Shown piece by piece: positions 3,040 through 5,938 of a stretch of 64,000 bases of DNA. The notes beneath the pieces were generated by a model. The model had not been told where the DNA came from and searched no databases. It saw nothing but the letters and a program-made list of their open reading frames with translations. Numbering within the stretch: position 1 is the first letter of the stretch; every line of letters starts with the position of its first letter. A program made the translations under genes and the position numbers. Source of the stretch: an uncultured Synechococcaceae cyanobacterium (GTDB lineage: Bacteria > Cyanobacteriota > Cyanobacteriia > PCC-6307 > Cyanobiaceae); contig CACGFX010000001.1 of the NCBI GenBank assembly GCA_902572395.1, positions 1-64,000 on the forward strand. The letters run 5' to 3'.

Positions 3040-3330
3040 TTATTTTTTCTTAATGTTCCCCTCAGAATTTTTTCTAGATATTTTCTTATATTCATTTCTA
3101 ATTTCGTCTAATAAAAGTTTTCTTTTATCCATATAGTTAAGAGAATCTTGTTTTGTTAAGTTATATCTTTCTTTTTTAGTTAAATTCATCCAATTATTAA
3201 AATTCTGTTTATTGAAAGTTGTTATTTTTTTAGAGTTAAAAACTTTTTGTTTTCTATTTAATTTAAGAAAATTCCTTAAATTAAAAAAAATAAATATAAA
3301 AAGAAAAATTATCACTATCTTCAAGAACAT
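3040..3330 (-). CDS. Hypothetical membrane-anchored basic protein
   Basis: 96 aa; one N-terminal hydrophobic helix then Lys/Asn-rich tail; overlaps the hisS 3' end by 10 nt. Confidence 0.5.
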   Translation of the reverse strand: MFLKIVIIFLFIFIFFNLRNFLKLNRKQKVFNSKKITTFNKQNFNNWMNLTKKERYNLTKQDSLNYMDKRKLLLDEIRNEYKKISRKNSEGNIKKK

Positions 3331-4610
3331 CTCTTTGCAAGTAAGTTATTGTTTATCCAATTTTCTAATTTAATATCATTCTCAAAAGATATAACCTCCT
3401 CTTCATTCCCATTACCTGATTGATCAAAGAGCCTTATAATAAATTCCCCATTAACTGCCTCATCATCACCAATAACAATAATACTTTTAGATTTAAGTTT
3501 ATTTGCCTTTTTAAATTGCTTAGAGAATGAGGCTCCGCTTAAATCTAACTCAACTAACAAATCGTAATTTCTTAATTTTCTAGATAAATCCATTGCTAAT
3601 GATTCAGCAATTAAGCCTTGATTAATGATATAAATATCAGTATTTCTAGGAATTTCAAGCTCTTTTCCTGCGAGTAAAATTAATCTTTCTAAACCAATAG
3701 CGAAACCAATTGCAGCAGTGTTTGGCCCTCCCATTTGTTTTATTAAATTGTCGTATCTCCCTCCTCCGCAAACTGTAGCTTGGGAGCCCAGAGCCCCACT
3801 AGTAATTTCAAAAGCTGTATGAGTGTAGTAATCTAAACCTCTTACAAGATTAAAATTTTCTACATAAGGTATTTTTAAAACCTCTAATTGTCTTTTTAAG
3901 TCTAAATATCTGTTATGACTTTTTTCAGATAAAAAATTAAATAACCTTGGTGCATTTTCAAGAATTTTTTTTGTTTGAATATTCTTTGAGTCCAAAATCC
4001 TCAAAGGGTTTTTAGAAATTCTATTCTGAGAATCTAAATCTAGAGAATCTTTATTTGTTTTTAACCATTTTAAAAAAGATTTTTGAAAATTTGATCTGTC
4101 ATCGGTATCACCTAACGTATTTATTTCAAGATTGAGTTCTTTTATTCCTAATTTACCTAAGATATCCCAAGCTAACGCAATAATTTCAACATCACTTCTA
4201 ACTGAATCATGTCCTATAAACTCAACACCTAATTGATGAAACTGTCTTTGCCTGCCTGCTTGAGGTCTTTCGTATCGAAACATAGGACCCATGTACCAAA
4301 GTTTTTGAAGAGGATTAGACGATATTCCATTTTGTATTAACGCTCTTGCGACTGAGGCTGTTCCTTCAGGTCTTAGAGTGCAAGATCTATCTCCCCTATC
4401 AAGAAATGTATACATTTCCTTACTGACAACATCTGTTCCTTCACCAATTCCTCTTATAAATAATTCGGTCATTTCCAATATTGGTGTTCTTATTTCTTTG
4501 ATGGATGCTCTAGAAAGCTGTTCTAATAAAAATTTTTCAACGTTTTGCCACTTTATTAATTGATCAGGAAATAGATCTACTGTTCCTCTTAGGTTTTTTA
4601 AGTTATTCAA
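3321..4610 (-). CDS. hisS: Histidyl-tRNA synthetase
   Basis: 429 aa with class II motifs: 'RPEGTASVARA', 'GPMFRYERPQAGRQRQFHQLGVE', 'LVRGLDYYTHTAFE'. Confidence 0.97.
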   Translation of the reverse strand: MNNLKNLRGTVDLFPDQLIKWQNVEKFLLEQLSRASIKEIRTPILEMTELFIRGIGEGTDVVSKEMYTFLDRGDRSCTLRPEGTASVARALIQNGISSNPLQKLWYMGPMFRYERPQAGRQRQFHQLGVEFIGHDSVRSDVEIIALAWDILGKLGIKELNLEINTLGDTDDRSNFQKSFLKWLKTNKDSLDLDSQNRISKNPLRILDSKNIQTKKILENAPRLFNFLSEKSHNRYLDLKRQLEVLKIPYVENFNLVRGLDYYTHTAFEITSGALGSQATVCGGGRYDNLIKQMGGPNTAAIGFAIGLERLILLAGKELEIPRNTDIYIINQGLIAESLAMDLSRKLRNYDLLVELDLSGASFSKQFKKANKLKSKSIIVIGDDEAVNGEFIIRLFDQSGNGNEEEVISFENDIKLENWINNNLLAKRCS

Positions 4611-4708
4611 AGTTCTAAAAAATAATTCAAAATTTTTAATTCATCTAGAAATTAATCTTTGATTGGTTATTTTGTGAGACAATTTTAATTTAACATTTAG
4701 AAAAACTA

Positions 4709-5131
4709 TTGGGAATTAATAAAAGTAAAGAGAATCAACATTGCGGTACAAAACCAAAAAAAATTGCTTTTGGAATAGCACCTCTTGGTATAGTTTCAAT
4801 AGGAATAGTGCCAATGGGAGTAATAAGTATAGGGGTAGTCCCAATGGGTGTATTTTCTTTTGGTGCAGTAGCAATGGGAATAGTCAATTTATCAGTAGTC
4901 GGGATGGGAATTATCTCTGCCGGTGTTACTACTATGGGGATATGGGAGTATTCACCTAATTCTCATAAAAATCATCATAATCATTCCAAACAAATTTCAA
5001 ATTCAAATAAGGAAGTAATGATATCAGATCTATTTAACACTAAACAAGAGGCTGAAAAGGCTGCTTCAAAATACGGATGTATTGGAGCACATAAAATGGG
5101 TAATAAATGGATGCCTTGTAAGATGCACTAA
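4709..5131 (+). CDS. Gly-repeat hydrophobic protein with DUF3721-like C-terminus
   Basis: 140 aa from TTG start; repeats GIVPMGVISIGVVPMG..., His-rich linker SHKNHHNHSK, C-terminus 'FNTKQEAEKAASKYGCIGAHKMGNKWMPCKMH' matches DUF3721 as I recall it. Confidence 0.7.
   Translation: MGINKSKENQHCGTKPKKIAFGIAPLGIVSIGIVPMGVISIGVVPMGVFSFGAVAMGIVNLSVVGMGIISAGVTTMGIWEYSPNSHKNHHNHSKQISNSNKEVMISDLFNTKQEAEKAASKYGCIGAHKMGNKWMPCKMH
4772..4951 (+). repeat. Intragenic 5-codon (15-nt)/10-codon repeat encoding G-x-x-x-hydrophobic units
   Basis: Twelve consecutive 5-residue units: GIAPL GIVSI GIVPM GVISI GVVPM GVFSF GAVAM GIVNL SVVGM GIISA GVTTM GIWEY; 11 of 12 start with Gly. Confidence 0.85.
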
Positions 5132-5161: not shown

Positions 5162-5938
5162 TTAATTCAAAATCTCAACTTTAAAATCAAGATTTTTTGC
5201 CTCATCAGTAGTTAATTTTCTTGACCAAGCTCCTTGCACAGGACTATTCCATCTGAACCCAGCATTTTTAGCTAAAGTCCTATCTTGATAACTAACCAAA
5301 GCCTTGTATAAAAACCTCGGTTCAGTAGCTTTAAGTAAAAGTTCCTCTAAGTTGTCGCATTTTTTGAAGACCTCAGATATGTAAAAGCAATCAGATAAAG
5401 CTCTATGTAAATTCCAAACGGGTATTGAAAAAGATAAGGCTAGATCAGTTACTGAAGGTCTTGTTTTTAGTGATTTTTGAAAAGACCAATTAATATCCTC
5501 TAAACTACATATCCATTTCTTATTAAGCTTAGGCAATCTTCCTTTTCCAAACCATTTCTTATCAAACTCCACATTATGGGCAACGATGAAATCTGAAGAA
5601 TCAACAAGTTTTAGAAAGAAATTCAATCCATCTTCCCATGGTTGAGAGATATTAGTTACTTCTGCAGATATACCATTTACATATTCGGCTTCATTATTAT
5701 TAATTGGAAATAAAAAAGAAACTTGTGAAAGTACACATTTAAAAGATACATCAAATAAGATACAACCTATTTCTATCACTTCATCTTTATTTTCGTCTAA
5801 ACCTGTTGTTTCAGTATCAAGAATTAAAATTTTTTCAATTTTTTTATTTTTCTTTACTCTCTTTTCAGAGGGATTAGTATTAATTTGATCATGAAGAAAA
5901 TCCAATTGATTTAATTCTTTTTTATTAAATAGTTCCAA
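5162..5938 (-). CDS. DEDD-family 3'-5' exonuclease (DNA Pol III epsilon-like)
   Basis: 'ILILDTETTGLDENKDEVIEIGCILFD' Exo I motif and 'DFIVAHNVEFDKKW' Exo II motif. Confidence 0.85.
   Translation of the reverse strand: MELFNKKELNQLDFLHDQINTNPSEKRVKKNKKIEKILILDTETTGLDENKDEVIEIGCILFDVSFKCVLSQVSFLFPINNNEAEYVNGISAEVTNISQPWEDGLNFFLKLVDSSDFIVAHNVEFDKKWFGKGRLPKLNKKWICSLEDINWSFQKSLKTRPSVTDLALSFSIPVWNLHRALSDCFYISEVFKKCDNLEELLLKATEPRFLYKALVSYQDRTLAKNAGFRWNSPVQGAWSRKLTTDEAKNLDFKVEILN

Follow-up and report, generated by a model that had tools for sequence, protein, structure and literature searches.

The most abundant photosynthetic cells in the ocean belong to Prochlorococcus and Synechococcus, and zinc is extremely low in their habitat. 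For Synechococcus WH8102 the SynZur regulon has been reported to include znuABC and three uncharacterised co-regulated genes, SYNW0968, SYNW0972 and SYNW0973 (accessible part of PMC9337993). A cyanobacterial zinc accessory outside ZnuABC, the ZepA exoprotein system of Anabaena, was found recently (accessible part of PMC10957091).

The protein analyzed here is encoded in the window (the whole stretch of DNA under analysis, 64,000 nucleotides) and combines a repeat of the Pfam family GLTT, a His-rich linker and DUF3721. The family, here referred to as GLTT-DUF3721, is linked to zur-znuABC like the SynZur regulon in the accessible text on WH8102, but in other genera, and the window gene differs by the lack of a Zur box. 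To ZepA it is likened by its proposed role only; the accessible part of that paper does not mention the family. Our literature search found no paper naming the GLTT repeat and no paper naming DUF3721. We consider the GLTT-DUF3721 protein an accessory of metal homeostasis in Prochlorococcus and Synechococcus, most likely of zinc acquisition, a reading we hold with about even confidence. It would give a core protein of two Pfam families of unassigned function a concrete and testable role in metal handling beside ZnuABC, and would provide a candidate helper in the handling of zinc or similar metals by ocean picocyanobacteria.

Layout and conservation of the gene

The protein starts with an N-terminus containing Cys and Lys, followed by twelve 5-residue units, the His-rich linker and the C-terminal DUF3721 (Table 1). 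The TTG start was conserved in all 71 ungapped sequences (window included). The motif ahead of the repeat was seen again across the Cyanobiaceae as HCGxKPKK, and no signal peptide was seen at the N-terminus of the window protein. Searches with the window protein gave no family in NCBIfam, no solid match in PHROG and no relative among PDB sequences. A phage or plasmid origin was rejected, since no relatives of the protein were present in phages, plasmids and viral contigs; for the DUF3721 of the partner gene described below no relative was found in phages.

Table 1. Features of the window in and around the GLTT-DUF3721 gene
Feature	Position	Strand	Remarks
hisS, histidyl-tRNA synthetase, divergent neighbour	3321..4610	-	adjacent in same genus, not in other genera
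Gap shared with divergent hisS, 98 bp	4611..4708	.	no Zur-box-like site with ≤3 mismatches
GLTT-repeat/His linker/DUF3721 gene	4709..5131	+	140 aa, TTG start, TAA stop
N-terminal HCGTKPKK, residues 11-18, Cys and basic residues just ahead of repeat	4739..4762	+	(nearly) invariant in 55 aligned orthologs
Repeat, residues 22-81, 12x5 = 6x10 residues, [G-x-V-P-M][G-V-I-S-I], Pfam GLTT	4772..4951	+	pN/pS 0.034
His-rich part of linker, SHKNHHNHSK, residues 85-94	4961..4990	+	linker pN/pS 0.49
DUF3721, residues 109-140, modelled helix and beta-hairpin	5033..5128	+	PF12518 59.3 bits; pLDDT 81-87 for residues 111-140
Candidate metal-ligand motif C-x-G-x-H-x-M-G-x-x-W-M-P-C-x-x-H, residues 124-140	5078..5128	+	85 distinct DUF3721 copies
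RNase_T-type exonuclease, convergent neighbour	5162..5938	-	context

With a match in 180 of 201 Cyanobiaceae genomes, the weakest of which may match via DUF3721 or the repeat alone, the gene belongs to the core. DUF3721 was present in 57 of 386 cyanobacterial genomes, every one of them Cyanobiaceae, and GLTT in 97 of the 386, other families included. The GLTT proteins examined outside the Cyanobiaceae consisted of a stand-alone repeat followed by a His-rich tail, without DUF3721. In three genomes outside the Cyanobiaceae (L198, L202 and L207) a His-tailed GLTT gene was located beside genes judged by eye to be cytochrome P450-like. Some Prochlorococcus-like genomes carried a tail-less, GLTT-only protein of 65-84 aa after the GLTT-DUF3721 gene (L145:9611-9865, L147:10612-10809, L244:9377-9613 and L245:6418-6657).

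Purifying selection was strong on the repeat and on DUF3721 and weak on the linker. The pN/pS values for 70 ungapped sequences were 0.034 (repeat), 0.127 (DUF3721), 0.25 (N-terminus) and 0.49 (linker), respectively. The preliminary description had proposed to compare the number of repeats across strains; twelve units were kept in the aligned orthologs, and the variation in length falls in the linker.

The Pfam scan confirmed that the C-terminus, initially called DUF3721-like, is DUF3721 (PF12518; 59.3 bits at a cut-off of 27, E 3e-16, model positions 1-32 of 33). The tail has the same C.G.H.MG..WMPC..H core as the family, including the WMPC motif with the conserved Cys and His (GCIGAHKMGNKWMPCKMH). 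The window copy differs in being fused to the repeat; many of the others form short His-tailed proteins, either secreted or of the lipoprotein type. A count over 85 distinct copies of DUF3721 gave 80 with the first Cys, 74 with the Met that follows the His and 71 with the last His; the middle His and the second Cys belonged to the search pattern, so that their counts are no test. DUF3721 gains a likely set of candidate ligands from these residues.

The His-rich linker SHKNHHNHSK is present as claimed, and its length and number of His differ among orthologs. As to the conservation of His and Cys, on which the original proposal of a metal-binding tail depended, the residues of DUF3721 are conserved and the linker histidines are loosely held. 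Metal binding by the Cys/His/Met tail is thereby supported indirectly, by the conserved DUF3721 residues and by the relatives found in zur-znuABC clusters. The ortholog (from 3001) in two single-cell genomes, L085 and L113, contained an in-frame stop just ahead of the conserved DUF3721 Cys, possibly a sequencing error. A genome search also returned a GLTT-DUF3721 gene with one in-frame TGA (G010:C1:1375162-1375563, in L145).

The repeat and its ten-residue period

Twelve consecutive Gly-led units had been reported from the letters of the sequence, and this count stands: Gly is the first residue in 11 units and Ser in unit 9 (SVVGM). Neither 100,000 shuffles of the whole protein nor 100,000 of the repeat domain alone reached Gly in 11 of the 12 period-5 slots. 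The strict five-residue period given for the repeat is correct but incomplete, since the true unit comprises ten residues with a Met/His ladder. Five Met spaced by exactly 10 residues appeared in 4 of 100,000 shuffles.

The repeat belongs to the known Pfam family GLTT (PF01744; 56.9 bits at a cut-off of 21, E 1.5e-15; two stretches, the best being residues 22-48), which the preliminary description had overlooked. The five-residue period is common to the window protein and the family; the cyanobacterial form differs by the ten-residue super-period with its Met/His slot. In 39 cyanobacterial GLTT proteins the decapeptide unit was [G-(I/V)-V-P-(M/H)][G-(V/I)-(I/V)-S-I]. Slot 5 was occupied by Met or His in 200 of 233 units (86%) in one half and in only 2 of 227 (1%) in the other, where the half-units were assigned by their greater Met/His content and the result is therefore the purity of the split and not its direction. 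In several distant relatives the early positions of the ladder were His and the later ones Met, a pattern that may resemble the exchange at soft-metal sites.

The pentapeptide repeat proteins, which form a quadrilateral beta-helix, are alike in the five-residue period and in one small residue per unit, but the window repeat is Gly-led, uncharged and hydrophobic. Membership in Pentapeptide_2 was rejected (12.3 bits, under the cut-off of 26.4). From K18 to E80 there is not a single charged residue, and residues 19-78 have a mean hydropathy of +1.86. Ordinary transmembrane helices would not be expected from prolines at positions 25, 35 and 45 combined with a Gly every five residues. TRF detected no DNA tandem repeat across the repeat domain; a DNA tandem repeat or recent expansion was therefore rejected, which makes the repeat an old one, maintained at the protein level.

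From the period a regular solenoid or membrane-embedded structure had been proposed; the period holds, and the structure stays a candidate, the predictions for the repeat being of low confidence. AlphaFold2 with a shallow alignment of 55 orthologs gave a pLDDT of ~42 for the repeat and of 81-87 for residues 111-140, modelled as helix and hairpin. For the repeat alone, as a single sequence, it returned an implausible 55-residue helix (residues 17-71, pTM 0.34), which we treated as uninformative; AlphaFold2 is unreliable on repeat sequences (PMC11795689). A Foldseek search revealed no significant fold relative in the PDB, the best matches being disulphide-rich peptides; given the low confidence of the model, this negative is uninformative. 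As a long shot, the ten-residue repeat might fold into a compact solenoid within the membrane, its Met/His side chains stacked into a one-dimensional metal-binding ladder, a minimal non-helical device holding or conducting ions across or along the membrane and fed by DUF3721 and the His tail. Such a decapeptide ladder, if metal-binding, would be an unusual membrane architecture.

Gene context in the window and in relatives

The genes of the analyzed loci are mechanical ORFs, and labels beyond the Pfam and NCBIfam calls come from visual inspection or from BLAST against those references. The arrangement of hisS and exonuclease around the GLTT-DUF3721 gene was limited to the genus of the window. 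The window copy had no metal-gene neighbour and no adjacent small DUF3721 partner, and no Zur box with up to three mismatches was found upstream of it, which does not place it in a Zur regulon by a box in its own promoter. This copy, from a high-light Prochlorococcus, lies beside hisS without partner or visible Zur site and is thus presumably expressed independently of Zur. For the window copy the zinc reading rests on homology.

Directly upstream of the GLTT-DUF3721 gene, most of the other Cyanobiaceae examined carried a small DUF3721 gene. Its product has a signal- or lipobox-like N-terminus and a His-rich end. Among the matches listed, znuB was located within 10 kb of the GLTT-DUF3721 gene in 27 of 65 same-contig genomes from 11 genera, and within 5 kb in 21 genomes; hisS, used as a control, was within 25 kb in 0 of 37, and it is this contrast that constitutes the evidence, since the znu-linked genomes share ancestry and their counts are not independent events. 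By the conserved linkage to znuABC and zur the gene counts as a component of a zinc-uptake gene cluster in these relatives. Neither marine Synechococcus (g34, g5) nor the genus of the window itself showed the znu linkage.

Two of the nearest relatives outside the genus (66% identity to the window protein) were found in the loci L233 and L234. Here the order is znuA / znuC, zur, znuB, small DUF3721, GLTT-DUF3721, with the two DUF3721 genes directly downstream of znuB and on the same strand. On the far side of znuA there are a short ORF and a GTPase judged by eye to be COG0523-like; COG0523 proteins have been tied to zinc homeostasis (accessible part of PMC2770081). A porin is present at the end of the cluster in L234 and beside the DUF3721 pair in L235 and L237. 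Zur-type palindromes, exact or nearly so (TGATAACCATTCTCA and similar), were found at the znuA/znuC promoter of znu-linked loci, either within it or adjacent to it. The boxes were restricted to the znu genes, and none was found upstream of the DUF3721/GLTT pair itself in the relatives.

Neighbours confirmed in various relatives were ZnuA, the FUR family, an iron-uptake-type porin (partly below cut-off), HupE_UreJ, ArsP_1, DUF1980 and DUF411. In the marine Synechococcus loci L221 and L224 a different secreted DUF3721 lies between HupE_UreJ and an ABC metal permease, and the cluster ends in a ZnuA-type binding protein. A porin akin to the iron-uptake porin family (below cut-off) was divergent from the DUF3721 pair in L143:8441-9595 (-) and L149:7796-8995 (-), and the N-terminus of the L143 porin was rich in His and Met (AGGMNHHDHHMHDSHMNM).

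Metal handling and its alternatives

Metal handling is well supported by the ligand-like conservation, the His-rich extensions in distant relatives and the repeated znuABC/zur linkage, and zinc uptake is its best single reading. The cytoplasmic membrane would hold the uncharged hydrophobic repeat, either embedded or at its surface; the basic N-terminus would face the cytoplasm, and the periplasmic side would carry the His linker and DUF3721. The tail and the small DUF3721 (lipo)protein might then hold Zn(II) or a similar ion and either pass it to ZnuABC or buffer it.

The main rival, given the DUF411 and MerR neighbours, is homeostasis of copper or of excess metal, in which the Met/His ladder and the Cys/Met/His tail would bind Cu(I) and the protein would buffer or detoxify the metal at the membrane. 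The Met-rich slot of the repeat would suit this function, a DUF3721 paralog lies beside DUF411 in L215, and a gene for a MerR-type regulator diverges from the DUF3721 pair in L154:10929-11348 (+) and L161:11000-11410 (+), the best models for the L154 regulator being CadR/PbrR and CueR, under cut-off. In addition, a GLTT-His-tail gene was located ~1 kb from a CusB-type-adaptor-like gene and an RND pump (L196:3373-8613, by eye). However, the linkage that recurs most for the full-length GLTT-DUF3721 is that to znuABC-zur and not to copper genes, and DUF411 accompanies a different DUF3721 subfamily, so that we regard copper as unlikely.

Two further observations were made at these loci. The sequence CCCTCCA recurs in the gap between the MerR-type gene and the DUF3721 pair in L154 and L161. 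Further along in L196:3373-8613 there is a response-regulator-like gene, and a heavy-metal context is suggested there by eye.

A structural or membrane-integrity protein, whose glycine repeat would pack in the plasma membrane or that of the thylakoid and for which the linkage to metal genes would be secondary, would be in agreement with the repeat as the most constrained part (pN/pS 0.034), with the twelve units kept in the aligned orthologs of a core gene (180/201 genomes) and with the absence of metal neighbours in the genus of the window. Since it accounts neither for the znu linkage nor for the conserved Cys/His/Met tail or the His tails found in distant relatives, we rate it as distinctly unlikely. 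A periplasmic redox or disulphide protein, in which the two DUF3721 cysteines pair instead of forming a metal site, is improbable: the two conserved Cys are close together in the helix-hairpin model and the best, non-significant Foldseek matches are disulphide-rich peptides, but the fixed spacing of the conserved His and Met, together with the His-rich extensions, suits a metal site better, and the metal-gene context is against it.

Further DUF3721 genes were found besides the fused form. The genome of the window carries a second one on contig C11 (L213:13016-13228 (+)), which encodes a 70-aa lipoprotein-like protein ending in HKHNH and has no zinc-uptake gene nearby. In high-light Prochlorococcus a third subfamily, ending in KNEKELH, is flanked by the genes of a DUF411 protein and of a small membrane protein (L214:494-631 (+) and L215:6321-7343 (+)). 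Its copy in the genome of the window has a Tyr in place of the first Cys.
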